Under the pieces are notes generated by a model. The model ran no database searches and was not told the DNA's origin. It worked only from the letters and a program-made list of their open reading frames with translations. This document shows positions 6,533 through 20,718 of a stretch of DNA of 21,263 bases, piece after piece. The stretch comes from a virus. Location of the stretch: the IMG/VR virus record IMGVR_UViG_3300035698_029829, positions 135,427 to 156,689 of that record. One strand, written 5' to 3'. Both the position numbers and the translations under genes were made by a program. Within the stretch, counting starts at the first letter, position 1; each line of letters begins with the position of its first letter.

Positions 6533-6560
6533 TTGTTCGTTTCCTTCATCGTGTAATCCC

Positions 6561-6612
6561 ATTGTACCATAACTCACCTAGTTTGTCAAGAGGAAGTGAA
6601 CGGGGCCGTTCA
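6561..6612 (-). promoter_or_regulatory. Promoter P4 with inverted repeat overlapping a stop codon
   Basis: TTGACA (6589-6584), 17 bp, TACAAT (6566-6561). TGAACG-GCCC-CGTTCA (6612-6597) sits 7 bp upstream of the -35; its first three bases are the TGA stop of the upstream membrane-protein gene. It drives the seven genes at 6532-3363. Confidence 0.9.
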
Positions 6613-6807
6613 TTCATCAGCGCCGTCCTCCGTTACGTCCTTCATGCAAGGACACTCCTCAGCGACGATCTTGAGCTTTTCAAGCTCGACCCTCTGCGAC
6701 GAGGAAAGGCCAGTATCGACATTAACAATGTCGTCGCATGGCCCCAGGAAGAACGCTATCGCCACCGCGCACAGAGCTATGACCACTACGGCCGTCCACT
6801 TATCCAT
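6610..6807 (-). CDS. Small single-pass membrane or exported protein, 65 aa
   Basis: ATG at 6807-6805 with AAGGAG upstream. Residues 5-22 (TAVVVIALCAVAIAFFLG) are a hydrophobic helix preceded by one Lys, consistent with a membrane anchor or uncleaved signal. The remaining ~43 residues are acidic and contain CPC near the C-terminus (EECPCMKD). A lipobox is not met, because Pro precedes the candidate Cys. It is the second gene of the P5 unit, 20 bp after the 324-residue gene. Could be a membrane-targeted host modifier; function unknown. Confidence 0.75.
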   Translation of the reverse strand: MDKWTAVVVIALCAVAIAFFLGPCDDIVNVDTGLSSSQRVELEKLKIVAEECPCMKDVTEDGADE

Positions 6808-7802: not shown

Positions 7803-7831
7803 GAAATCTCCTTTCGTTTATCCTCAATTGC

Positions 7832-7883
7832 ACTTTAGCAAAACGTAGGAGGTTTGTCAAGGACAAATGAACGAGGTTGTTCA
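7832..7883 (-). promoter_or_regulatory. Promoter P5 with inverted repeat
   Basis: TTGACA (7860-7855), 17 bp, TAAAGT (7837-7832). TGAAC-AACCTC-GTTCA (7883-7868) lies 7 bp upstream. Unlike its siblings, this repeat does not abut a stop codon: about 320 bp of gene-free DNA lies upstream. Confidence 0.85.
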
Positions 7884-8205
7884 TTTTTTTGTTCGTCCTC
7901 TGTATCCTGTACCTACGCGCGCACACGCGCACGCATCGCGTGCGAGGCAACCGCCCACCGATGTTCAACCGACGCTGGAACGTCACGGCGGCAAAAGTGA
8001 ACACAAGTGACGCTCAAACTACCATCGTAAGTATCGAGAAAATAGTGTGTTTCGAAAAAGTGAAAACTATTTTTTGAAGTCGTTGGGCTAGGTGGTAAGG
8101 TATAGTGGCGGAGCCACTATGCCTACGATCAGTAGATGGCAAACTATAGATGGGTAATCCGGTAGTTCGAAAGATGGCAGCCTGACGAAGGGGCAGCCTG
8201 GTAAC
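7884..8205. other. Gene-free region of ~320 bp with several hairpins
   Basis: Lies between the P5 repeat and the 3' end of the 8206-9147 gene. It holds an A/T hairpin AAAATAGT...ACTATTTT (8039-8046 with 8066-8073), a tight hairpin ATAGTGGC-GGA-GCCACTAT (8102-8120), a 9-bp direct repeat GGCAGCCTG (8176-8184, 8192-8200) and a run of alternating CG/CA (7917-7940). Small reading frames lack SDs. It may be the 3' end of the upstream transcript, a non-coding RNA or a binding region; I cannot tell. Confidence 0.45.
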
Positions 8206-9703: not shown

Positions 9704-9730
9704 TTATCCCGTTCCTCCGTCGTTGAAGAC

Positions 9731-9783
9731 AGCTTAGCAAATCGTACGGAGTTTGTCAAGGTAAAAATGAACGGGAGGGTTCA
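9731..9783 (-). promoter_or_regulatory. Promoter P6 with inverted repeat next to a stop codon
   Basis: TTGACA (9759-9754), 17 bp, TAAGCT (9736-9731). TGAAC-CCTCCC-GTTCA (9783-9768) begins immediately after the TAG stop of the upstream gene (9786-9784) and ends 8 bp before the -35. Confidence 0.85.
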
Positions 9784-10209
9784 CTAAACGGATGGAGTGA
9801 GGTGCAGGGCCGCTCGCGTCCAGGAGGTCAAGGCATTCCAGAAACGCCAGCGCCAAAGAGCCTGGTGCTCACACCAGGTAACGAGGTAATCACTGCGCCG
9901 AACGCGCACGTACCGGTTTAAGCTGTCGAGATGCTCAACGAACGCGCGCAGAGGAGTGAGGACTTCCTCGGTGGCACGCTCCTCGATGAAAACCTCGATC
10001 ATCTGTTTGGCACGAGGGATATTTTCCATGTATATGGAAGAAATGTCACCAACCTTCATCCGAACCACCTCGCGAGTGCCGAACTTAAAGCCGTCAAAGG
10101 TACCGACGACAACCTTGCCACGCAACTCTGCACCACTTGACAGGCGGAACTGTACCCAGGTGCCCTTTCCCTTCATGAGAGCGGAGTGTCGTATTGTGGT
10201 TGCGGTCAT
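9784..10209 (-). CDS. Hypothetical protein with Sm/SH3-like N-terminal region, 141 aa
   Basis: ATG at 10209-10207 with AAGGTGAAGGA directly upstream. Residues ~12-70 (GTWVQFRLSSGAELRGKVVV, then FKFGTREVVRMKVGDISSIY) show the five-strand alternation of a small beta barrel of Sm/Hfq or SH3 type; I infer this from pattern only. A helical, Arg/Trp-rich C-terminus follows (YVRVRRSDYLVTW, RFWNALTSWTRAALH), consistent with nucleic-acid or membrane contact. Single gene under P7. Confidence 0.7.
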   Translation of the reverse strand: MTATTIRHSALMKGKGTWVQFRLSSGAELRGKVVVGTFDGFKFGTREVVRMKVGDISSIYMENIPRAKQMIEVFIEERATEEVLTPLRAFVEHLDSLNRYVRVRRSDYLVTWCEHQALWRWRFWNALTSWTRAALHLTPSV

Positions 10210-10376: not shown

Positions 10377-10394
10377 GATACCACCGGTGGTATC
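10377..10394. repeat. 18-bp palindrome, copy 1
   Basis: Perfect GATACCACCGGTGGTATC, with one more matching base on each side (A...T). Confidence 0.9.
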
Positions 10395-10444
10395 TTAAAT
10401 GCAGAGCGTCTACAGATAGGCGTTTTCGGGAGGCTCACTAAGGA

Positions 10445-10462
10445 GATACCACCGGTGGTATC
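10445..10462. repeat. 18-bp palindrome, copy 2
   Basis: Perfect GATACCACCGGTGGTATC, 68 bp from copy 1 (start to start). Confidence 0.9.
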
Positions 10463-10471
10463 ATATAGGTA

Positions 10472-10499
10472 GATACCAAAAACTCGGCCACCTGGTATC
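10472..10499. repeat. Split variant of the palindrome
   Basis: GATACCA and TGGTATC arms separated by 14 bp instead of 4. The right arm contains the TGA stop (10500-10498) of the last array gene. Confidence 0.6.
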
Positions 10500-11154
10500 A
10501 AGGCAGATCGGTTTCCACCAGCTTCTCGATCAGCTCGTAGGGCTGCAACCGCCGGAGTTTGACTGGCGTAGCGGTGTACTCGAAGTCCCGTCCCTGGTGC
10601 ACGTGGTAGGCGCTGAACACGCCCACCTTCTCGCCGTCGGGGGCCAAGGATAGCAGCGTGTCATCGCGGCCACCCATGCACAAATCATGAATCTTCGGAT
10701 CGTCCTTTGAAACCGTGGTGCCCCACCGTCTAATGAGCAACACATCCCCCTCGTCGTCCTCCAAGGCGAAGGCGTAGCGGACGGTGAGCATCTCTCGCTG
10801 GCCGAGTCCTTCGAGGGCGGCGAGATGGTTAGCCAGGTTGATCTCCAGGGCGCTCATCCTCCCTGGGTCACCAGGTACCGCCACGGCTGGTCTCCAACGG
10901 CGCGGCGTATCGTAGTCCCATTGTGGGATGGTGTAGTCCCAAGTCCGGATCATGCTCAAATCGCGCTTCACGTCGGGAAGTTCGGGCGTCGGTCGGACTA
11001 GGTAGGCGAGGTAGTGGAGCCACTTGGGCTCCGGACGACCGAAATGTTGGAACATCTCACCCTTCGTCCTGATCTGGACAGGTACCTGGGTGGGTCTACC
11101 CCCCGCCTTCCCGACGAGTCCCATGATAGCCGCACTGAGTTTATTCTTGGCCAT
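10498..11154 (-). CDS. Array member 8 (last), 218 aa, C-terminal LVETDL motif
   Basis: ATG at 11154-11152 lies inside the preceding gene (14-nt overlap); its SD GGAAGAAG is formed by codons of that gene's LVEEA motif. A basic N-terminal helix (MAKNKLSAAIMGLVGKAGG) leads to a Trp/Pro-rich segment (WDYTIPQWDYDTPRRWRP) and a domain with strands (MLTVRYAFALEDDEGDVLLI, RRWGTTVSKDD). It ends in LQPYELIEKLVETDLP, the array-wide motif. As the last gene it has no downstream start to serve, and its motif has ET where upstream members have EE. Function unknown. Confidence 0.8.
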   Translation of the reverse strand: MAKNKLSAAIMGLVGKAGGRPTQVPVQIRTKGEMFQHFGRPEPKWLHYLAYLVRPTPELPDVKRDLSMIRTWDYTIPQWDYDTPRRWRPAVAVPGDPGRMSALEINLANHLAALEGLGQREMLTVRYAFALEDDEGDVLLIRRWGTTVSKDDPKIHDLCMGGRDDTLLSLAPDGEKVGVFSAYHVHQGRDFEYTATPVKLRRLQPYELIEKLVETDLP

Positions 11155-11380
11155 CGGCTTCTTCCACCAGGCGTTCAATTGCCTCGGTTATGGTTGCTGA
11201 CCGTGACCAAGCACCACCGTAATTGTCGATCTCAATGAAAACAACTTGAGGATTGCCGGTCAAAGAGTTAGTCCTTTCGTAAAATCCGTCCTCCTTTTCT
11301 AAGTCCCACCATCGAGACCAACCATCAAGAACCCGGGCAGTAAAGGCAGCCAATTCTATTGTAGCCTGGTTGTCCCTCAT
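11141..11380 (-). CDS. Array member 7, 79 aa
   Basis: ATG at 11380-11378 overlaps the previous stop (ATGA). A short helix (RDNQATIELAAFTARVLDGW) is followed by FIEIDNYGGAWSRSATITEA and IERLVEEADGQE. The part from F-x-E-x-D onward aligns closely with members 6 and 5 (F.E.D..G..W.R..T..E), so these three are clear paralogues. The codons of VEEA form the SD for member 8. Possibly only a minimal domain carrying the common motif; function unknown. Confidence 0.8.
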   Translation of the reverse strand: MRDNQATIELAAFTARVLDGWSRWWDLEKEDGFYERTNSLTGNPQVVFIEIDNYGGAWSRSATITEAIERLVEEADGQE

Positions 11381-11778
11381 CCCAAATCCTCTTCGACCAG
11401 AAAGCCGATCAGTTCAATGGGCGTCACCGGACGAGACCATTTCCGTCCGTAATCGTCATCCTCGGAGAAGAAAACTGTCTGAAATGGCAGATGGGTGGTT
11501 TCAACCTGTTCGGTTGAAACTGGGCGATATGAACCTGTTCGGTTGAAACCGAGTGGTATAAACCTATTCGGTTGAAACCAACCGTGTTCCTCGCGCCACG
11601 TTCTTTCCAAATCTCCCATTATCTTACGGTCGATGTCCAGGGCTATCTCTTGGGCCAGTGTTTGGGTAATCTCCTTCTCACCAGGGAAATCCTCAGTCTC
11701 ATCGTCGAGGTCGAGGGATTGCTCGGAAATGGTCTTTACGATGTTTACTCCTTCGTAGATGTGCTTGTCACCCGTCAT
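11377..11778 (-). CDS. Array member 6, 133 aa, contains 29-bp DNA repeats
   Basis: ATG at 11778-11776, ATGA overlap, SD GAGG inside the preceding IKEDMG codons. An acidic N-terminal part (SEQSLDLDDETEDFPGEKEI) and helix (TLAQEIALDIDRKIMGDLER) lead into residues ~68-98 encoded by three copies of an 18-bp DNA repeat read in three frames (FQPNRF, GFNRTG, VSTEQV). The end, FFSEDDDYGRKWSRPVTPIE then LIGFLVEEDLG, is the family motif and aligns with members 5 and 7. Function unknown. Confidence 0.8.
   Translation of the reverse strand: MTGDKHIYEGVNIVKTISEQSLDLDDETEDFPGEKEITQTLAQEIALDIDRKIMGDLERTWREEHGWFQPNRFIPLGFNRTGSYRPVSTEQVETTHLPFQTVFFSEDDDYGRKWSRPVTPIELIGFLVEEDLG
11503..11578. repeat. Three iteron-like direct repeats, 29-bp period
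   Basis: AACCTGTTCGGTTGAAAC occurs at 11503-11520 and 11532-11549, and as AACCTATTCGGTTGAAAC at 11561-11578, with unrelated 11-bp spacers. Each copy has internal dyad AACC-N5-GGTT; copy 1 extends to 9-bp arms (GTTTCAACC / GGTTGAAAC). The period is not a multiple of three although it lies within a gene. Confidence 0.9.
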
Positions 11779-11996
11779 CCCATATCCTCTTTGATAAACA
11801 GATTCATCGCCTCATAAGCCGTTAACGGCCGCCACCACTTACGACTGAATCCATCCTTCTCAATAAAATGCGTGCTAGATTCAGTCAACAGCGCACCACG
11901 GCCCGCACCGAGGACGGCGTTATTCGGAGCAAGTCGAAAACCCCGTGCTCTGTAATCAGCAGCAACCAACCTAGCCAACACCGAAGACATCTTCAC
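11775..11996 (-). CDS. Array member 5, 73 aa
   Basis: Starts with GTG at 11996-11994, forming GTGA with the preceding stop; AGGAGG lies 7 nt upstream inside the LVEEEL codons of the gene before. An ATG two codons later is possible but worse spaced. A short helix (SVLARLVAADYRARGFRLAP) precedes strands and the family end (STHFIEKDGFSRKWWRPLTA, YEAMNLFIKEDMG), aligning with members 6 and 7. Probably a minimal version of the shared C-terminal domain. Function unknown. Confidence 0.78.
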   Translation of the reverse strand: MKMSSVLARLVAADYRARGFRLAPNNAVLGAGRGALLTESSTHFIEKDGFSRKWWRPLTAYEAMNLFIKEDMG

Positions 11997-12406
11997 GGCA
12001 GTTCCTCCTCGACCAGGTAATCCAAGAGGTCGGCCGGATCGACGAGGCGCATCCAGCCCACCTGATGTTCATCGCCGTTCAGCTTTGGCTCCGGTATCAG
12101 ATCGACCACCGTTTCGTCGTCAAGCGATCCCATGAGATTCCCCTCCTTGAAGCCATCGAAGGCAGGGATCTCGATCTCCAGGATAGTCGTTGGGTTCGTC
12201 GGTACCCGATACCAGGCATACGCGCCTTCGGCGTCGACTCTGACAAGCTGTACCCGGAAGCACCCTGTTGGGAAGACAGCCGGTTTTGGGAGCCTGGCGA
12301 AGGTACAGTCAGGCGGTCCATGAACGGCGAGGGTGGAGCAACTCGGCCCCTGTCTGTGGATGCGGTCGGTCATCTCGATCACCTCGTTGAGGAGGCTCTT
12401 GGTCAT
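11993..12406 (-). CDS. Array member 4, 137 aa
   Basis: ATG at 12406-12404, ATGA overlap, SD GGAGGAG encoded by the MPEERS tail of member 3. The N-terminus has a helix (KSLLNEVIEMTDRIHRQ), then a Cys/Pro-rich stretch and beta-type segments (CFRVQLVRVDAEGAYAWYRV, TTILEIEIPAFDGF). The end, VGWMRLVDPADLLDYLVEEE then LP, fits the family motif, and its GAGGAGG serves as the SD of member 5. The N-terminal part is unlike the other members. Function unknown. Confidence 0.8.
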   Translation of the reverse strand: MTKSLLNEVIEMTDRIHRQGPSCSTLAVHGPPDCTFARLPKPAVFPTGCFRVQLVRVDAEGAYAWYRVPTNPTTILEIEIPAFDGFKEGNLMGSLDDETVVDLIPEPKLNGDEHQVGWMRLVDPADLLDYLVEEELP

Positions 12407-12984
12407 GACCGCTCCTCCGGCATTATTACCAGTTCGTCGAGGTGGAGTGTACCGGTTCGACCTTCCAAGTCGGCAGCCACCAGGCCGTCGAGCACTTCAC
12501 GAGGGCTTGGATAGTAGATGTCGCCGTGGAACACGTGGTACCGAGTTGTTCCCCAAAGGTCAGTGACGCCTGTCTCTTGAAACCGGTGTGTGTACAGCCG
12601 AAAGAGGTGTTCACTGCCCCTTGAAAAGTCATCGAAAGGAACGTTTTCTTTATCGTGCGGCCACGCTCCCTCCGACATAATTACGTAGTCGTCGGTGCCG
12701 ATTATTTGAAAACAAGTTGCCATTTCCTCCATTAAAAACTCGTGCCGTTCATCGGCTTGAGCACTTTCGGGAGGACTGGGGCTCCAGGTGATCGAGACCG
12801 AACCAACTAAAGGGGATACCTTCAACTGGTACAGGCCGGAAACCATGGCGCGGTGTTTCGTAATATGGAAAATGCTCCAAAATCGTCGGCCGTCGCGTCG
12901 TAGACTCTCTCGTATTTCGCGCTCCGCGTTCATAGTGAACGTCTTGCCGATATTGCGACCTACTTGGATGCTCTGACGAGTCAC
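12403..12984 (-). CDS. Array member 3, 193 aa, motif with C-terminal extension
   Basis: Starts with GTG at 12984-12982 (GTGA overlap), SD GAGGAGG inside the LVEEE codons of member 2. A basic N-terminal helix (AEREIRESLRRDGRRFWSIF) is followed by a beta-rich body. The motif appears as YPSPREVLDGLVAADLE, with the Glu pair changed to Ala-Ala, and then 19 more residues end in MPEERS. In this gene the SD for the next gene comes from that EE tail rather than from the motif. Function unknown. Confidence 0.8.
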   Translation of the reverse strand: MTRQSIQVGRNIGKTFTMNAEREIRESLRRDGRRFWSIFHITKHRAMVSGLYQLKVSPLVGSVSITWSPSPPESAQADERHEFLMEEMATCFQIIGTDDYVIMSEGAWPHDKENVPFDDFSRGSEHLFRLYTHRFQETGVTDLWGTTRYHVFHGDIYYPSPREVLDGLVAADLEGRTGTLHLDELVIMPEERS

Positions 12985-13391
12985 GTCTCCTCCTCGACCA
13001 GGAATTCCACTACCTCACTTGGCATAGCAGCTCGCACCAGATGTAAGCGGCTACCTGGTGGCGCTCTGAAGCGGTGCGTTTTCTCAAAGGTAGCTTCAAC
13101 CTGGCTATGCGGCGGCACAAGGCCAACTGGCGTGTACATCCAGGTGGGACCGACATTGTCGACGACGATGTGCCCTTGCAATTCAGAGTAAGATTTGTCG
13201 TCTATCATCCAACTGGCAATCGCCTCACCGTGGATCGACGCATCATAGTGGATCACGTCGCAGACGGTAAGCCGGATCGTGAGCGTCTCATCGTCCAAAT
13301 CGTACGGAGCAGGCTCCGCTACCTTTATCTCGTGACCGAGAAATGTGCTGTGGACAATGAAAACTTTATTTGCCTTCGGTTGTGTTCTCAT
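12981..13391 (-). CDS. Array member 2, 136 aa
   Basis: ATG at 13391-13389, ATGA overlap; the SD region is AGGGGTGG in the tail of member 1. A beta-rich body (KVFIVHSTFLGHEIKVAEPA, TLTIRLTVCDVIHYDAS, ELQGHIVVDNVGPTWMYTP) ends with LHLVRAAMPSEVVEFLVEEE then T. The VEEE codons (GAGGAGGAG) are the SD of member 3. No membrane segment or catalytic motif. Function unknown. Confidence 0.8.
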   Translation of the reverse strand: MRTQPKANKVFIVHSTFLGHEIKVAEPAPYDLDDETLTIRLTVCDVIHYDASIHGEAIASWMIDDKSYSELQGHIVVDNVGPTWMYTPVGLVPPHSQVEATFEKTHRFRAPPGSRLHLVRAAMPSEVVEFLVEEET

Positions 13392-14056
13392 CGCACCACC
13401 CCTAACGCCCGACGGAGTTTGCCTCGATTAGGCTTCGCCAATTCGGTAGCCAACTCTACCTCAGTCTCGACCAGGCGCTCCATCAACCATGCCGGAGTCA
13501 CTAAGTTGACGCGGGACTCCCAGGCGTTCTTCGCCTCCTGCGGCGGAGCCACTGGTGTACCACGTAACGCCGAACGCGTTCCGGGGGTTAAGTTGGCGAT
13601 CAGATCCTGAACCAAGCGGATGTCCTCCTCGGCCAGGTTGGCAACCAGCTTCGTGGGCACCACGTAGACGTGCTCCGTCCGTTCAACTCCCTTCCAATCG
13701 CCGATCTGTAATACTCCAGCGGTCTTTGTACCCAGCACCACTACGCCGGAATTCCCCTCGGCATCTCCAATAGTGAGAAAAGCGCGTAAGTCGATTCGCA
13801 CAATCCAGGGACCGAAGGGTGACGTAATTTGCTGAGGTAATTGAACCCGTGTGTTGAAAGGGGATGGCGGAGGTGGAACGGGTGGCCGCTGTCCGGAGAC
13901 ACGGCCTTTGGGATCATGGAGGATCAAAACGGTGCCCTCGGGCTCGAAATGCAGGTGTGCCACAGCACAGAGGCCAGTCGGAGGCTCGCCCCCGAAGGCA
14001 AGCACCAAAGTTTCGACAGTCCGAGCCGTCGGGGATATGACTCGTGGGCCTTCCAT
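13388..14056 (-). CDS. Array member 1 (first), 222 aa
   Basis: ATG at 14056-14054 has only a weak SD (GGTAAG), unusual here. The body has strands (CAVAHLHFEPEGTVLILHD), a Pro-rich linker (QRPPVPPPPSPFN), further strands (WIVRIDLRAFLTIGDAEGNS) and a helix. The family motif occurs as NLVTPAWLMERLVETEVE, followed by 22 extra residues with a basic end (RGKLRRALGVVR), so as in member 3 the motif is internal and carries ET instead of EE. A strong hairpin lies 25 nt upstream. Function unknown. Confidence 0.78.
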   Translation of the reverse strand: MEGPRVISPTARTVETLVLAFGGEPPTGLCAVAHLHFEPEGTVLILHDPKGRVSGQRPPVPPPPSPFNTRVQLPQQITSPFGPWIVRIDLRAFLTIGDAEGNSGVVVLGTKTAGVLQIGDWKGVERTEHVYVVPTKLVANLAEEDIRLVQDLIANLTPGTRSALRGTPVAPPQEAKNAWESRVNLVTPAWLMERLVETEVELATELAKPNRGKLRRALGVVR

Positions 14057-14073
14057 GTGTTTATCTTACCACG

Positions 14074-14113
14074 AAAAAGCGAAACGGCGACCGATGAAGC
14101 CGGTCGCCGTTTC
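14074..14113 (-). terminator. Strong intrinsic terminator or attenuator before the array
   Basis: A perfect 13-bp stem (GAAACGGCGACCG 14081-14093 with CGGTCGCCGTTTC 14101-14113), 7-nt loop, followed on the minus strand by GCTTTTTCG. It could end the 14197-16206 operon or act as an attenuator in the leader of the array. Confidence 0.85.
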
Positions 14114-14160
14114 TAGTTCTTCAACCCTAACTGCCAAACGCCCCGTTTAGAGCGTGTCAC

Positions 14161-14189
14161 ACAATTTCAGATATTGGGTGGTTTGTCAA
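14161..14189 (-). promoter_or_regulatory. Candidate promoter P8 (degenerate -10)
   Basis: TTGACA (14189-14184) then 17 bp and AATTGT (14166-14161), a poor -10. The context TTGACAAACC matches the other promoters; there is no TGAAC repeat. It is the only visible promoter between the 14197 stop and the array, and the hairpin at 14081-14113 lies between it and the array. Confidence 0.4.
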
Positions 14190-14196
14190 GTGAAAA

Positions 14197-14511
14197 CTAA
14201 GGGTGGACAACCTCGTGCATAACCTTCCCTCGCTGGACGTATCCACCGGCCAACTCATCCTTACGAGTTTTGAGGGCCATTGGTTTGCCGAAGTAGGTGG
14301 TGGCGTATTCGAGGTTGACCCGGCTGACTTTGATGATCTTGCCGCTTTGGGAGGAGACGCGGCGACTGCCAACAGTCTTGAAGATGTCGCCCACCTTGAT
14401 CTCATTAAAGGTGATCGGGTCGCCCCAGGTATGGCCGGGCTTCAGCTCGGGGCGCTCGGCTTCAACGAGCATCTCGTCGACAGTGCGGAGGTCTCGCTTC
14501 AAGGCATCCAC
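14197..14511 (-). CDS. Hypothetical protein, SH3/KOW-like centre, 104 aa
   Basis: The start is GTG at 14511-14509; ATG two bases later is out of frame. The only SD-like sequence, GGTGG, is in the right arm of the palindrome (14518-14535), about 10 nt upstream. A helical N-terminus (KRDLRTVDEMLVEAERPEL) is followed by ITFNEIKVGDIFKTVGSRRV and SGKIIKVSRVNLEY, which reads like a small beta barrel ('vGdi........sGkiikV'), and a basic C-terminal part. Last gene of its operon. Function unknown. Confidence 0.72.
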   Translation of the reverse strand: MDALKRDLRTVDEMLVEAERPELKPGHTWGDPITFNEIKVGDIFKTVGSRRVSSQSGKIIKVSRVNLEYATTYFGKPMALKTRKDELAGGYVQRGKVMHEVVHP

Positions 14512-14517
14512 CTACGA

Positions 14518-14535
14518 GATACCACCGGTGGTATC
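14518..14535. repeat. 18-bp palindrome, copy 3
   Basis: Perfect copy, symmetry extended by GA...TC to 22 bp. Sits in the 30-bp gap between two genes and may supply the SD of the downstream one. Confidence 0.9.
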
Positions 14536-14541
14536 TCTTTC

Positions 14542-15006
14542 TCAGCTTGGGAACATATGAGCAATGGGGTAACCCAGGTTGACGATAATACGGTCAGCGC
14601 CTCTCTTCAAGGTAACGCTGATCTTTTCAGCGTTGGTCTTAGCCTTAACGGCAGCTTCGAGCTTCGGTTTATACGCCTCCAACTCCTCCGCATCGTCGTT
14701 AATGATGACGACCTGTATCCACCAAAGTCTTTCGTCGATGAAGTTCCAGTGTTTCTCGTGGAGATGTACCTGGGCGGACGGGAAGTCGACGGCGAGGAAA
14801 TCATTGAAGGCTTTTTCTATCCGGTCACGAAGCTGCTTGTTGGCGGCTTCGACGCTCCGTTGAAGGTCCTTCACGGTACGGTCAATCCCAGCAAGGTCCT
14901 GGGAGCCTTCATCGAGCGGTGTCTCATCCGGCTCGGAGTAGGGGGTGGCCGGTACATCCTCAGCCAAGAGGTCGTTCAACGGGTGAAAGGGGTTGATGCG
15001 ACTCAT
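14542..15006 (-). CDS. Tagged protein A, 154 aa (shared MSRINPFHPL N-terminus)
   Basis: ATG at 15006-15004 has AAGGAG 6 nt upstream, so the upstream in-frame ATG is not used. The first 26 residues (MSRINPFHPLNDLLAEDV then PATPYSEP) are identical to those of the protein at 15517-15825, with only scattered silent changes in the DNA. After that the sequences diverge: here a coiled coil (RTVKDLQRSVEAANKQLRDR) and an alpha/beta domain (ERLWWIQVVIINDDAEELEA ... RIIVNLGYPI) follow. The tag is rich in Pro and acidic residues and might be a docking or packaging signal; this is inference. Confidence 0.85.
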   Translation of the reverse strand: MSRINPFHPLNDLLAEDVPATPYSEPDETPLDEGSQDLAGIDRTVKDLQRSVEAANKQLRDRIEKAFNDFLAVDFPSAQVHLHEKHWNFIDERLWWIQVVIINDDAEELEAYKPKLEAAVKAKTNAEKISVTLKRGADRIIVNLGYPIAHMFPS

Positions 15007-15016
15007 GTCAATCTCC

Positions 15017-15481
15017 TTAATCAACTATGTCTTCGATTTTGCCATGGTACTTCAGCGCACGCCGAAGAATTTTATCGAGTGAGACGACTTCCTGGTAGAA
15101 GTAATCGCAGTTCTGGAGCACCTGGTCGAGCTTTGCCACGGGAATTTTCGATCCTGTTAACGGCTCCTCGAACGGCCATGCTTTGGTTTCGAGGAGCATG
15201 TCGCCGATGATCTGATCTTCGTCGTTACCGTCGACCTTGAAATAGAGTCGAATCCGCGTGGTGGCCAATTTCTCTTTCTTGATGTACTCATCTCCGAAGC
15301 GCTTGAAGCCGTGTTTGCTGAAGATTGGTCCCAGCTTGGTTTGGAGATCGAGTGCTTCCTTGCTCGGGCTAGCCGCTTCGTCGACACCCTTCCGCAGGTG
15401 CGATGGGGCCTTCGGATTCGTTGGCCCAGGGTTCTCTCGCCAGTCATTAAGCACCTGGTCTACGCTGCGTTGGTCCTTCAT
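15017..15481 (-). CDS. Hypothetical protein, 154 aa, between the two tagged genes
   Basis: ATG at 15481-15479 with GAAGGGA upstream. The N-terminal ~45 residues are Pro/Asn-rich and probably disordered (ENPGPTNPKAPSHLRKG). The rest is an alpha/beta domain (LGPIFSKHGFKRFGDEYIKK, TTRIRLYFKVDGNDEDQIIG) followed by helices (AKLDQVLQNCDYFYQEVVSL, DKILRRALKYHGKIEDIVD). It lacks the shared MSRINP tag. Placement between two tagged proteins suggests a common complex. No family recognised. Confidence 0.8.
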   Translation of the reverse strand: MKDQRSVDQVLNDWRENPGPTNPKAPSHLRKGVDEAASPSKEALDLQTKLGPIFSKHGFKRFGDEYIKKEKLATTRIRLYFKVDGNDEDQIIGDMLLETKAWPFEEPLTGSKIPVAKLDQVLQNCDYFYQEVVSLDKILRRALKYHGKIEDIVD

Positions 15482-15516
15482 GGTGGTTCCCTTCTCAGAG
15501 TGTCTTGTGAATGGCG

Positions 15517-15825
15517 TTAACCGAGCGACCGATTCAAACGCTGTCGTACTTTCTGAATCTCGCTGTTCATGCGAGCGTAAATGTCTGCGTCGCTGTTCCA
15601 TTCACCGCCGCTCTTGCGAAACTGCTTGACGGCGTTCGCTATTTTATCCGTTGCCTGGTCGAGGTGTTTCACCGCATCCTTGAGGTCGGTGTGGATATCC
15701 TTGTTCAACTGCGTCGCCTCGTCGATAGGCGGTGCTGATTCCACACCCGGCTCGGAGTAAGGAGTGGCCGGTACATCCTCAGCCAGGAGATCGTTCAGCG
15801 GGTGGAAAGGATTGATGCGGCTCAT
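15517..15825 (-). CDS. Tagged protein B, 102 aa (shared MSRINPFHPL N-terminus)
   Basis: ATG at 15825-15823, AAGGAG 6 nt upstream; an in-frame ATG six codons earlier is too far from the SD. The N-terminal 26 residues are identical to tagged protein A; then a different body begins: an acidic helix (LNKDIHTDLKDAVKHLDQAT DKIANAVKQF as one long coiled coil) and a C-terminal helix (ARMNSEIQKVRQRLNRSLG). The whole protein looks helical. The tag's N-terminal position on unrelated bodies indicates duplication of only the 5' end of the gene. Confidence 0.83.
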   Translation of the reverse strand: MSRINPFHPLNDLLAEDVPATPYSEPGVESAPPIDEATQLNKDIHTDLKDAVKHLDQATDKIANAVKQFRKSGGEWNSDADIYARMNSEIQKVRQRLNRSLG

Positions 15826-15853
15826 GCCGGTCTCCTTCGTCATCTACAGAGGA

Positions 15854-15871
15854 GATACCACCGGTGGTATC
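15854..15871. repeat. 18-bp palindrome, copy 4
   Basis: Perfect copy; its last base belongs to the TAG stop (15873-15871) of the membrane-protein gene, and it lies 28 bp from the next start. Confidence 0.9.
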
Positions 15872-16206
15872 TATTCGTTATCCCTCTTCTTTTTGGCTTT
15901 CTTAATGACCTTCTCCGGGTCCTTGCCCTGGCCCTTCAGCAACTCTTCCAGCATGGCGTTGGTGGCGTCCTGTTTTTCCATCTGTTTTTCCTGTTCCAGA
16001 TTCGCGTTGAACTGCTCCAACTGATTGGTAAGGTTTTTCAAGTTTTGATTGGTCAGAGCGCTTTCTTTCTTCAACTCGGCGATTTCTCTGTCGTTCTCCT
16101 TGTCCTCGGCGTAGGTGTAGCTGAGATTGCCTATGAGACCACCGACGAAGGCAACGATGAGCAAGATCATCGGTATCTTGATGAAGCGCCCGTTGGTATT
16201 CGGCAC
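15871..16206 (-). CDS. Membrane-anchored coiled-coil protein, 111 aa (spanin-like layout)
   Basis: Starts with GTG at 16206-16204 behind GGAGG at 6-nt spacing. Residues ~10-30 (IPMILLIVAFVGGLIGNLSY) are a membrane helix preceded by basic residues. Residues ~38-85 form a Lys/Glu/Gln/Asn-rich coiled coil (ENDREIAELKKESALTNQNL), and the tail is strongly basic (EKVIKKAKKKRDNE). An N-terminal anchor with an extended coil is the layout of i-spanins (Rz-like) but also of many other phage membrane proteins; no o-spanin partner or lysis cassette is seen, so lysis is speculative. First gene of a five-gene unit. Confidence 0.75.
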   Translation of the reverse strand: MPNTNGRFIKIPMILLIVAFVGGLIGNLSYTYAEDKENDREIAELKKESALTNQNLKNLTNQLEQFNANLEQEKQMEKQDATNAMLEELLKGQGKDPEKVIKKAKKKRDNE

Positions 16207-16354
16207 GACCGACCTCCCGATGGTGTTCCAGCGTCACCGTTATCTTCATCGCACCCACAGAGCCAGTGCAGAGAAGATACCGGGTAGGTAGTTAGGAGTC
16301 CGGCGCGGCCGGACGTTGTTTAGGTCAAGGCTAGGACAGGAAAGGAGAATCACC
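16207..16354. promoter_or_regulatory. Divergent intergenic region with a GC-rich inverted repeat
   Basis: Separates leftward and rightward halves. Contains the perfect repeat GTCCGGC-GCG-GCCGGAC (16298-16314) and a half-palindrome GATACC followed by CGGG (near 16275). No consensus -35/-10 pair is visible for either side, unlike elsewhere in the window, so these genes may use another polymerase, an activator or distant promoters. Confidence 0.45.
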
Positions 16355-17824
16355 ATGTCCAAGAGAAAGCCATCTCTGCCCTCTCACAAAAAAGTCGATG
16401 TCACAACCAAACCGATGCGGAAAAAGACCCGTCCTTACAAGGCCGTCTGTAAGGTCTGCTCCAGGGAATTCCAGAGCGCCAAACCGACAGAGGTGTGTCT
16501 CAATTGCCGTGCCGAGGGATCTGAAGCCGCCGAGGAACTGATCCGCCTCGAACGCCTCCAAGAAAACGTGGATGAGACAATGCGCCTCGAACGCCTCAAA
16601 GAGGAGGCGAATGCAGATCACTGGTTCCACTGCAACGATTGCGAGACGGAGTTCCGCGCCGAGGACGAGGACCCGAACTACGACGGCACCATCGAGGCGT
16701 TAGACAACCTCGTCTGTCCGGAGTGCGCCAGTGCCAACCTTTCAGGGATAGCATATTCGCCGATCAAACTTGCGAAGAAAACACTCACCTTTAACGATGT
16801 GATCGGACAATGGGAAGCCGAAGCCACCCTCAAAATCTTGCACCCGAGCTTAACCAGGGCACTCGAAGGAGGAGTGTACGGCCAATCTGATGTCGACCGG
16901 CTGCGTCTTGCTCTCGTGCACCAGGTCAACAAGCAGGTTGAACGGCACTTACCTGATTCGGCAAAGACCACGGCGAAGGGCGAGATGCGCGATCTTGCGT
17001 ACACCCTTCACCGCCTGGCAAACCTGGCAGACCCCACACCCTCGGCGTCTGTCCGCATCAATCCGGATATCCTGAAGGAGATTGCGAACCTTCACGGTCC
17101 CGGCAGTCTCAAAGAACTACGAGACATCGTTGATGAGAAGGCCCAGCGCCAAATCGACGAATTCCGGAAGGAACACGACTCGGCCAATCTAACCTCCGGC
17201 GAGCGGTATCTCAAGCAACACGGAAAGGGTGGCTACTTTTATCCCTATGGTATGGCGGGGGAGTTCTTGTTGGCCTTCATGAACCGCCTGGCGTCTTACT
17301 TCGGTTCCCAGGGACACGTGACCAACCGGCTCTACGATCTGCTAAAGGTCGCAGGCGTCGTCCCCGATCCCGGTGAGCCATGGGAGCGGTCGCGTGCCCG
17401 AGCAGTGCGGGTCGAGCTGTTCAACGTAGTGTGCTACAACACGATGATGGGCATTACAAATCGAATGCGTGACCGGCTTGTCAAGGACTGTCGATTTCAG
17501 ACCAAGGAAGAGTTGGGGCGGGACTTTGTAGACCGGAGCCAGCTGGAGCTGTGGTTTATTGATAACTGGTTTGGCTGGATGACCAAGGCCCGCGAGGAAG
17601 CGTTTTGGGTTGGTGAGTTTGCTTTGAAGACGCACCAGTTTGAAGTATGGAAGGAACGAACCGCCGTACTCTTCAATCAAGTGACGCGCGAACCAAGCGA
17701 CACTTTCACGACCGCCGAGGTGCTCGTCGACGTACTGAATTTCTGCAAGGAACGCGTGACCGAGAAGTTTCTGGCTGAAGTACCACTGCGGCCAGGAGTG
17801 GTCGAGATGGAATCGACGGAGTAG
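16355..17824 (+). CDS. Zinc-ribbon protein, 489 aa
   Basis: ATG at 16355 follows AAAGGAG; upstream in-frame ATG lacks an SD. A basic N-terminal tail leads to a first ribbon at residues ~31-50 (AVCKVCSREF ... EVCLNCRAE), a coiled segment (EELIRLERLQENVDETMRLE), and a second ribbon at ~87-125 (FHCNDCETEF ... LVCPECASAN). The remaining ~360 residues are helical and contain conserved-looking aromatic stretches (GKGGYFYPYGMAGEFLLAFM, LWFIDNWFGWMTKAREEAFW). No nuclease, polymerase or helicase motif is visible. It is the largest gene in the window and the first rightward one, ended by a structured element. Function unknown. Confidence 0.85.
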   Translation: MSKRKPSLPSHKKVDVTTKPMRKKTRPYKAVCKVCSREFQSAKPTEVCLNCRAEGSEAAEELIRLERLQENVDETMRLERLKEEANADHWFHCNDCETEFRAEDEDPNYDGTIEALDNLVCPECASANLSGIAYSPIKLAKKTLTFNDVIGQWEAEATLKILHPSLTRALEGGVYGQSDVDRLRLALVHQVNKQVERHLPDSAKTTAKGEMRDLAYTLHRLANLADPTPSASVRINPDILKEIANLHGPGSLKELRDIVDEKAQRQIDEFRKEHDSANLTSGERYLKQHGKGGYFYPYGMAGEFLLAFMNRLASYFGSQGHVTNRLYDLLKVAGVVPDPGEPWERSRARAVRVELFNVVCYNTMMGITNRMRDRLVKDCRFQTKEELGRDFVDRSQLELWFIDNWFGWMTKAREEAFWVGEFALKTHQFEVWKERTAVLFNQVTREPSDTFTTAEVLVDVLNFCKERVTEKFLAEVPLRPGVVEMESTE

Positions 17825-17838
17825 GATAAGGCACGACA

Positions 17839-17912
17839 GGCCAGGTGCTTACGTGTAGCCGCCCCCAGGGGGATGATACCACCGGTGGTATCATGCAGGT
17901 GAGTGCCTGGCC
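17839..17912 (+). terminator. Large structured 3' element with nested palindrome
   Basis: A 14-bp outer stem allowing G-U pairs (GGCCAGGTGCTTAC 17839-17852 with GTGAGTGCCTGGCC 17899-17912) encloses two inner hairpins: CCCC-CAG-GGGG (17863-17873) and the GATACC palindrome copy 5. A CCTTTCAATTTC tract follows. It lies 15 bp after the stop of the 489-residue gene and is probably its terminator or 3' structure. Confidence 0.6.
17875..17892. repeat. 18-bp palindrome, copy 5
   Basis: Perfect copy. Its flanks are AT...AT rather than GA...TC, yet remain complementary, extending the symmetry to 22 bp. Confidence 0.9.
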
Positions 17913-18127
17913 CTTTCAATTTCTTCAATGATTACAAGTGGTAGGAGATACCACCGGTGGTATCTCAGCGTCCCCTCGGCACGCGGCGCGCCGAAAAACC
18001 GAGGCGGCGGAGGTGAAGAGTCCCCGCCACCCCGTGCCACAACTCGCGGCTCTTACACGGAGATAGATCCACATGGCGTCTCTTATCTTCAGCAGCCTGG
18101 GAATCGACGTGCTCGTTCACTTTTCTC
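17913..18127. other. Gene-free spacer before P9
   Basis: Apart from copy 6 it contains a GGCGG...CCGCC pairing (about 18002-18030) and a 26-codon frame (18074-18151, starting MASLIFSSLG behind a distant GGAG) that runs through the P9 promoter and is unlikely to be made from it. No supported gene. Confidence 0.45.
17947..17964. repeat. 18-bp palindrome, copy 6
   Basis: Perfect copy, extended to 22 bp by GA...TC. 72 bp from copy 5 (start to start). Confidence 0.9.
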
Positions 18128-18564: not shown

Positions 18565-18596
18565 CACGCAGTGAGAACTGCGGCCCCTCATAATAA

Positions 18597-18648
18597 TGAA
18601 CGTGCGCGTTCATCCCCTCTTGACAAACCTCCTAAGATATGAGATAAT
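18597..18648 (+). promoter_or_regulatory. Promoter P10 with inverted repeat
   Basis: TGAACG-TGCG-CGTTCA (18597-18612), 7 bp, TTGACA (18620-18625), 17 bp, GATAAT (18643-18648). The repeat lies 32 bp after the TGA of the preceding gene. Leader ATG at 18657 is in frame with the first gene. Confidence 0.9.
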
Positions 18649-18689
18649 AGCCTTAGATGAGAGAGGCAATTCTAACCAGGAGGAAAGCC

Positions 18690-18886: not shown

Positions 18887-19078
18887 ATGAAAATGGTTGG
18901 AGTGGATCAAGCTGTTAAGAACCTGGCTGCGTGGATCATCGACAGGCACGGCTGCCAGGATTGGAAAGTCAAGGCAGAGGAGTGCTCAGAACCGGTAGCC
19001 GTCGCTTTGGGTGTTCCCTTTGACGGCTTCCGTAAAATGGTAGCCAAAGAAATCATAAGGCAAGACGAAGAGGGGTGA
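18887..19078 (+). CDS. Small protein, 63 aa
   Basis: ATG at 18887 with AAGGAGG upstream, 14 bp after the previous stop. Helical throughout (VDQAVKNLAAWIIDRHGCQD, DGFRKMVAKEIIRQDEEG) with two Cys. The frame can be extended upstream but without an SD and across the previous gene, so the short form is chosen. No family recognised. Confidence 0.75.
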   Translation: MKMVGVDQAVKNLAAWIIDRHGCQDWKVKAEECSEPVAVALGVPFDGFRKMVAKEIIRQDEEG

Positions 19079-19082
19079 AAAG

Positions 19083-19409
19083 ATGATTGTCATTGAAATT
19101 CCGCACCGGATGATCCCAAGAGCCTACGAAACCGATGAGGCCGGACTGATCGAGGAAGCCCACAAAAAGGCCGACGAAGCTGGCCTGGCTTACGAGGCTG
19201 GAGAATTTCCAGATTCAGATTTCACGGAAGCCAATTGGGCGCGGGAGGTCCTCTTTGGAGATCTCGCCTTTGTTCAGGAATTCGACACCATCGGGGAGGC
19301 CCTCCTATGGGCGACGGAGTACGCGAAAGCTGATCACAAAGGATGCTACAACTACCAGGCGTTCGAGGTCGAGGCAGCCGTTGAAGCTCTGGCCGAGCTT
19401 TTGGCTTAG
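19083..19409 (+). CDS. Acidic helical protein, 108 aa
   Basis: ATG at 19083, 4 bp after the previous stop, with GAGGGG upstream. A short strand (MIVIEIPHRMIPRAY) leads into acidic, Ala-rich helices (EEAHKKADEAGLAYEAGEFP, AFVQEFDTIGEALLWATEYA, VEAAVEALAELLA). A negatively charged small helical protein can mimic DNA, as several phage anti-restriction and inhibitor proteins do; nothing specific supports that here. Third gene of the P10 unit. Confidence 0.78.
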   Translation: MIVIEIPHRMIPRAYETDEAGLIEEAHKKADEAGLAYEAGEFPDSDFTEANWAREVLFGDLAFVQEFDTIGEALLWATEYAKADHKGCYNYQAFEVEAAVEALAELLA

Positions 19410-19435
19410 AACCTTCGGGATCAACAGCATAGCAA

Positions 19436-19487
19436 TGAACGCGCACGTTCATTTTCTCTTGACAAACTCTGACAATTATGGTACAAT
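19436..19487 (+). promoter_or_regulatory. Promoter P11 with inverted repeat
   Basis: TGAACG-CGCA-CGTTCA (19436-19451), 7 bp, TTGACA (19459-19464), 17 bp, TACAAT (19482-19487). The repeat starts 26 bp after the preceding stop. Confidence 0.9.
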
Positions 19488-19498
19488 AGACTTACAAA

Positions 19499-19552
19499 AT
19501 GGGGAGAGGACAGCGTCCTCAAAATGAAACCAAAAGCGGGAGAAGACGATGA
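19499..19552 (+). CDS. Possible 17-aa leader peptide of the P11 unit
   Basis: ATG at 19499, about 5 nt from the expected mRNA start and without an SD, opens MGRGQRPQNETKSGRRR and ends at the TGA overlapping the next gene's ATG as ATGA. Comparable leader frames follow P4 and P12. Confidence 0.35.
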   Translation: MGRGQRPQNETKSGRRR

Positions 19553-20561: not shown

Positions 20562-20564
20562 AAG

Positions 20565-20617
20565 TGAACAGAACCGTTCATTTTGCTCTTGACAAACTCG
20601 GTAAGATATGATATAAT
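20565..20617 (+). promoter_or_regulatory. Promoter P12 with inverted repeat
   Basis: TGAAC-AGAACC-GTTCA (20565-20580), 8 bp, TTGACA (20589-20594), 17 bp, TATAAT (20612-20617); full consensus. The repeat follows the TGA of the preceding gene by 3 bp. Confidence 0.9.
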
Positions 20618-20628
20618 AGTCTTAGAGG

Positions 20629-20718
20629 ATGGGGAAGGGAGAAGCCCGAACCCAAAACGAAACCGGGGAAGGAAACCCCAGGACAAAGCTCGAAAGGAGC
20701 AAACCAAATGGAAGTTAA
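20629..20718 (+). CDS. Possible 29-aa leader peptide of the P12 unit
   Basis: ATG at 20629, 11 nt after the -10 and without an SD, encodes a charged peptide (MGKGEARTQNETGEGNPRTK...) whose stop overlaps the first 11 nt of the next gene. It may couple translation of that gene or be fortuitous. Confidence 0.35.
   Translation: MGKGEARTQNETGEGNPRTKLERSKPNGS

Follow-up and report, generated by a model that had tools for sequence, protein, structure and literature searches.

The internal proteins of bacteriophage T4 are diverse anti-host proteins that have only a conserved targeting sequence in common, by which they are directed to the core of the prohead (PMC3012670; PMC9026906), and the T4 Alt protein, a virion-packed ADP-ribosyltransferase, is processed at both of its ends (PMC9026906). 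Here, we analyzed a tandem array of eight small genes whose products share a C-terminal motif, located in a window of 21,263 nucleotides (bases 135,427–156,689) at the right end of the 156,689-base virus record IMGVR_UViG_3300035698_029829; positions without a prefix are window positions, and the prefixes L001 to L007 denote other stretches of the same record. The record encodes a contractile-tail sheath, about 50 transfer RNA (tRNA) genes and a transfer-messenger RNA (tmRNA), and it stems from a large tailed phage, of which no close relative was found in the collections searched.

Like the T4 internal proteins IPI, IPII and IPIII with their capsid-targeting sequence (CTS), which are encoded among small genes and tRNA genes, the array comprises small, diverse proteins that carry a short common sequence on unrelated bodies. 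The preliminary description of this DNA held that no described system has this form, which was too strong, as the T4 internal proteins also share only a short CTS (PMC3012670; PMC9026906). However, the T4 CTS is an N-terminal propeptide of about 10 residues that is removed by gp21, whereas the array module is C-terminal, spans about 30 residues and is predicted to be a β-hairpin with a helix; the array motif thus stands at the terminus opposite to MKTYQEFIAEA, the CTS in the T4 record, and its profile gave no convincing match to T4 proteins. A gp21-type [LI]-x-E site can be read in seven of the eight array motifs, as L-V-E or I-K-E, but at the wrong end, and a search without positive control gave no Peptidase_S77 match in the record. 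T4 Alt shows that packed phage effectors can have C-terminal propeptides, but it belongs to no array and has no C-terminal module common to unrelated proteins. In encapsulins and microcompartments, unrelated proteins reach a common shell by way of a cargo-loading or encapsulation peptide, which is a short peptide at a terminus or an amphipathic helix; these systems are cellular, unlike the phage array. The array is new as a sequence family, stands out from the usual orphan small genes and is similar in kind to a strategy known from phages, its possible mechanism resting on analogy.

The array consists of eight minus-strand open reading frames (ORFs) running from 14056 to 10498, named M8 (first transcribed) to M1 (last transcribed), which encode in this order 222, 136, 193, 137, 73, 133, 79 and 218 residues. 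The gene order is coupled, with overlaps at all seven junctions and ATGA or GTGA at six of them. M1 most likely starts at the ATG at 11154, 14 nt within the preceding gene, rather than at the TTG (11178) with which the longest ORF begins. The leader (14057–14113, minus strand) carries a 14-pair hairpin with a T-run (14113–14081) and then an extended −10-like TGGTAAGAT that stops 6 nt short of the M8 ATG, which suggests, from consensus matches and reading, a separate promoter for the array.

The shared motif, of about 26–30 residues, runs from a hydrophobic strand and a turn through W-x-R-x-[VL] to [TSDQ]-[PAI]-x-[ED]-[LAV]-[LIM]-x-x-[LF]-[VI]-[EAK]-[EAT]-[DE], with individual members deviating at some positions. 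It forms the protein end in six of the eight and lies 21–23 residues before the end in M6 and M8, in agreement with the preliminary description, which listed the motifs in coordinate order, numbered the members in transcription order, and gave about 20 extra residues to its members 1 and 3 (13388–14056 and 12403–12984). A profile of the eight C-terminal stretches found exactly these eight places in the whole record, at expectation (E) values of 5e-13 to 4e-9, and two much weaker ones. Because these values include the training members, each member was left out in turn. Five of the eight were then found at E ≤ 0.002, namely M7 (12981–13391, motif at the C-terminus at 12984–13058, E 0.002), M5 (11993–12406, C-terminal motif 11996–12073, E 2e-4), M3 (11377–11778, motif 11380–11457, E 3e-9), M2 (11141–11380, motif 11150–11227, E 7e-4) and M1 (10498–11154, motif 10501–10578, E 3e-4). 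Two were found weakly, M8 (13388–14056, motif 13454–13531, E 0.054) and M4 (11775–11996, motif 11778–11855, E 0.11), and M6 (12403–12984), with the weakest motif (12463–12540), was missed and counts as a member by position and pattern only. Of 40 column-permuted profiles of unchanged composition, the best reached E 0.019. The last 50 residues of the eight proteins gave a mean pair score of 34.4, against 18.9 for other gene pairs in the genome, and the array was the top-scoring run of eight C-termini in the genome, the next independent run of eight genes scoring 23.4 and a 46-kb segment of T4 reaching 24.0 at best. The ORFs and motifs of the eight consecutive leftward genes lie where first described, and by the leave-one-out, pair-score and permutation tests the sharing of the motif is real and beyond chance.

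M4, M3 and M2 (members 5–7 of the preliminary description, at 11775–11996, 11377–11778 and 11141–11380) had been noted as alike just before the motif. They have the hairpin in common as well, with pair scores of 49–78 (78 for M4 with M3), and are therefore plain homologues over about 35 residues. Across the array, the bodies show no detectable similarity: after removal of the last 32 residues none was convincing, the best z being 2.4 among 28 pairs. An AlphaFold2 model of M4, with the eight paralogous stretches as alignment, placed strands at residues 43–47 and 53–57 and a helix at 60–72, with a mean predicted local distance difference test (pLDDT) score of 71–79 over residues 41–70 and lower values in the remainder; a model of M7 alone (pLDDT 37) was uninformative. 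The motif helix is amphipathic in all eight members, above 79–100% of their own shuffles, and it is acidic and N-capped. A β-hairpin followed by an amphipathic helix is thus supported as the form of the motif by one moderate-confidence model, and the idea of a small module on different bodies holds in the sequence tests, with a hairpin and helix in place of the lone helix first imagined.

Searches for relatives gave no homologue. None of the eight array proteins matched Pfam, PHROGs, NCBIfam or PADLOC profiles above cut-off or at E < 0.001, a PDB sequence search gave nothing significant (best E 0.08), and a fold search with the moderate-confidence model gave nothing significant either (lowest E 1.1 against PDB, 0.12 against BFVD). 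A match of M3 to the T4 head protein Gp23 (E 0.088) was judged to be chance. By tblastn, M6, the eight proteins joined, and an extra motif-bearing protein of the record (X1, below) had no relatives among 50,697 phage records (best E 0.6). No array relatives appeared in viral contigs scanned with M5, the palindrome and promoter unit described below, or the sheath, ATPase, reductase, 444-aa and 489-aa proteins, or in genome contigs scanned with M1. The motif profile had no match in 201 genomes from the phylum of one metagenome-assembled genome with a related nuclease gene, a search that serves as a specificity check only. Literature searches turned up nothing pertinent on tandem genes with a common C-terminal motif.

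Elsewhere in the record, the motif recurs marginally in X1 (L003, about 19043–19179; E 0.003, below all 40 permuted profiles), a gene that probably starts with TTG at 19179 directly behind a Rossmann-like gene and probably carries the motif near the N-terminus of an otherwise unrelated protein; a second weak place is L002:11793–12212 (E 0.02). The genome also has a second terminal tag, [DE]xR[TS]Vx[DE]LLxE[WD], at the N-terminus of unrelated proteins including those of structural-region genes. Its carriers include at least L001:5933–7240, L005:7162–7575, L007:2748–3059 and L007:10351–14064 (twice), with leave-one-out E of 7e-5 to 8e-4, given as whole-protein values for these four genes; less certain carriers are L002:13225–13983, L007:761–2290 and, in the window, 15017–15481 and 14197–14511. 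One tagged body matches Pfam Peptidase_Mx slightly below the cut-off (E 1e-5), as a putative zinc metallopeptidase, and L005:7162–7575 reads, by its YHGT...YVTT...A..FA pattern and without a profile match, like an ADP-ribosyltransferase, a type of cargo that T4 packs (Alt; PMC9026906). The N-terminal tag resembles the T4 CTS in terminus, in length and in its order of residues (R-T-V-x-D-L-L-x-E versus K-T-Y-x-E-F-I-x-E). Its profile misses the T4 CTS, which makes this a likeness and not membership, and its role is a guess.

Based on these findings, we tentatively propose, as a reading that may well fail, that the C-terminal hairpin-helix is a docking module for one common partner that delivers variable effectors, with the virion core as the likeliest class of partner. 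Eight small proteins with unrelated bodies would be made together from one coupled transcript, and the common module, usually at the C-terminus, would bind each of them to the same partner through its hairpin and N-capped, amphipathic acidic helix, so that a single assembly would gather a swappable set of effectors. The likeliest assembly would be the scaffold or core of the forming virion, as with the CTS of the T4 internal proteins, while the alternative partner is a complex, of host or phage, within the cell. Unrelated bodies with one portable hairpin-helix are built as cargo proteins sharing a plug would be, and the internal motif of two members, together with its marginal occurrence near the N-terminus of the unrelated X1, is as expected of a portable module. 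The occurrence of a second terminal tag on unrelated proteins, with candidates beside the array, also counts in favor of docking. The helix fits the docking or adaptor role that the preliminary description had suggested; nevertheless, we infer by analogy that the module docks, that its partner is a common one and that the virion delivers the proteins.

Several results weigh against this proposal. No homologue was found in any phage of the libraries and collections searched, the array, surrounded by small genes that have sigma-70-like promoters, is not next to the sheath gene, which is at the opposite end of the record, and head genes were not identified in the record. Profile comparison does not link the C-terminal motif to the N-terminal tag (hhalign, probability 0.3%), the tag profile found no match to the T4 capsid-targeting sequences, and the hairpin could simply be what one fast-evolving fold has conserved best. 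We consider it unlikely, though worth stating, that two unrelated address systems for effector proteins stand side by side, each on variable proteins, one being the N-terminal tag and the other, the C-terminal hairpin-helix, a new docking domain that lets one complex, the virion core or another, carry eight interchangeable effectors.

A doubtful but serious alternative to docking is that the eight genes form one rapidly diverging family, old tandem duplicates of one small fold, in which the hairpin-helix is the part still like the ancestor, as functional core or C-terminal sheet element, and the bodies are relatives no longer recognizable. The likeness of M2, M3 and M4 over hairpin and helix (pair scores as above), the helix-like stretch that each of them has, by reading, before the hairpin, and the beta-rich reading of several bodies, with a strand running into the motif in the low-confidence M7 model, would all suit such a family, as would the old divergence at the codon level. 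On the other hand, the lengths range from 73 to 222 residues, the bodies lack similarity, two members continue for 21–23 residues past the motif, and an unrelated protein elsewhere probably has it close to its N-terminus. The motif might also be an address for turnover, membrane or nucleoid, in which a surface or a protease adaptor of the host, and not one protein partner, recognizes acidic amphipathic C-terminal helices. This is rather improbable: the C-terminal location in six of eight, the amphipathic character and the acidity would fit, but a hairpin with a conserved W-x-R ahead exceeds what such signals need, two members extend past the motif, and acidic helices rarely bind membranes or DNA.

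The codons bear on both duplication and translation. Identical motif residues use the same codon 61 times, where codon usage predicts 50, which is barely above chance agreement and speaks against recent duplication, so that any duplication is old and the expansion by duplication and domain swapping proposed earlier is weakly supported. The Leu of the motif is CTG in all seven members that have it, whereas CTG makes up 23–25% of Leu codons genome-wide and 23% in Leu-Val pairs elsewhere; the idea that CTGGTGG at the motif is Chi-like was dropped, since GCTGGTGG occurs 9 times in the genome against 8.4 expected, at chance level. The conserved C-termini might be thought a by-product of translational coupling, in which GAGGAGG encodes E-E and serves the next gene as its ribosome binding site, at ordinary helix endings. 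In M5 and M7 the E-E codons do double as the Shine-Dalgarno sequence of the next gene (AGGAGG, 4–7 nt before the start), and in M3 and M4 more weakly. However, M1 carries the motif with no gene coupled downstream, the motif lies 21–23 codons ahead of the stop in M6 and M8, and the W-x-R and P-x-E positions are conserved upstream of the ribosome binding site. The motif is therefore not a ribosome-binding-site by-product, an explanation that is largely refuted and that we regard as very improbable.

Immediately upstream of the array, and on its strand, are candidates for the N-terminal tag. The gene at 14197–14511 (minus strand, 104 aa) has a weak tag, LRTVDEMLVEA, at residues 7–17 (leave-one-out E 0.78, rank 3), and 15017–15481 (minus) has MKDQRSVDQVLNDW (E 0.026, rank 1). 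Two further minus-strand neighbours, 14542–15006 with the N-terminus MSRINPFHPLNDLLAEDVPATPYSEP and 15517–15825, have different bodies and near-identical first 26 codons (84% over 103 nt); membership of the 14542–15006 N-terminus in the tag family is without statistical support. AAGATAA stands 11–13 nt ahead of three called starts, one being that of the array and two belonging to N-terminally tagged genes, a link made post hoc. The perfect 18-bp palindrome GATACCACCGGTGGTATC has six exact copies in the record, at 10377–10394, 10445, 14518, 15854, 17875 and 17947, all within 10377–17964 (7.6 kb of the 156-kb record) and paired at both ends of this block (10.4–18.0 kb), which places the array and its tagged neighbours in one marked block. 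The copies mostly lie close behind a stop codon. The M3 body contains three 29-nt tandem repeats (11492–11578) with an inverted repeat GTTTCAACC...GGTTGAAAC, and each copy is read in a different frame because 29 is not a multiple of three.

Mobile regulatory cassettes, reportedly described by Arbiol and colleagues in 2010, are said to shuffle small genes in T4-type phages. The window likewise has several units of a stem-loop and a TTGACAAAC promoter between small genes, whereas the array is one coupled operon with no such units inside. The stem-loop (ATGAACG...CGTTCAT) stands directly before a TTGACAAAC-TATAAT promoter at 2419–2487, 6546–6614, 7817–7885, 9730–9785, 18589–18660, 19428–19510 and 20563–20640, and TTGACAAAC promoters elsewhere in the record mostly have no stem-loop.

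Beyond the window, the tRNA genes and the tmRNA (tag ADIELLAA) lie in L004, L005 and L006 with a tRNA nucleotidyltransferase gene; one tRNA has the amber anticodon CTA and one was called with a 4-base anticodon, TTAA. A clustered regularly interspaced short palindromic repeat (CRISPR) array of about ten repeats similar to GTTGCGATTACCCCTCAAACGGAGGGTGTTCACACC, with a 66-nt period, adjoins a gene for a 511-aa TnpB-like nuclease (L001:14934–15570 and 15791–17326, record bases about 130,360–132,752) whose top PADLOC match is Cas12u4 (E 1e-54), and together they look like a phage-carried type V-U system. A further TnpB-like gene (L001:1386–2750, 454 aa) has a Cas12f1-like TNB domain, and no array was noticed beside it.

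If the hairpin-helix is a docking tag, it would be a label by which a phage effector set could be found by sequence alone where every body is an orphan, and it would be to the C-terminus what the T4 capsid-targeting sequence is to the N-terminus, usable for cargo loading. Even as no more than the conserved end of a single family that diverges fast, it joins eight genes that otherwise have no annotation into a unit that can be tested.

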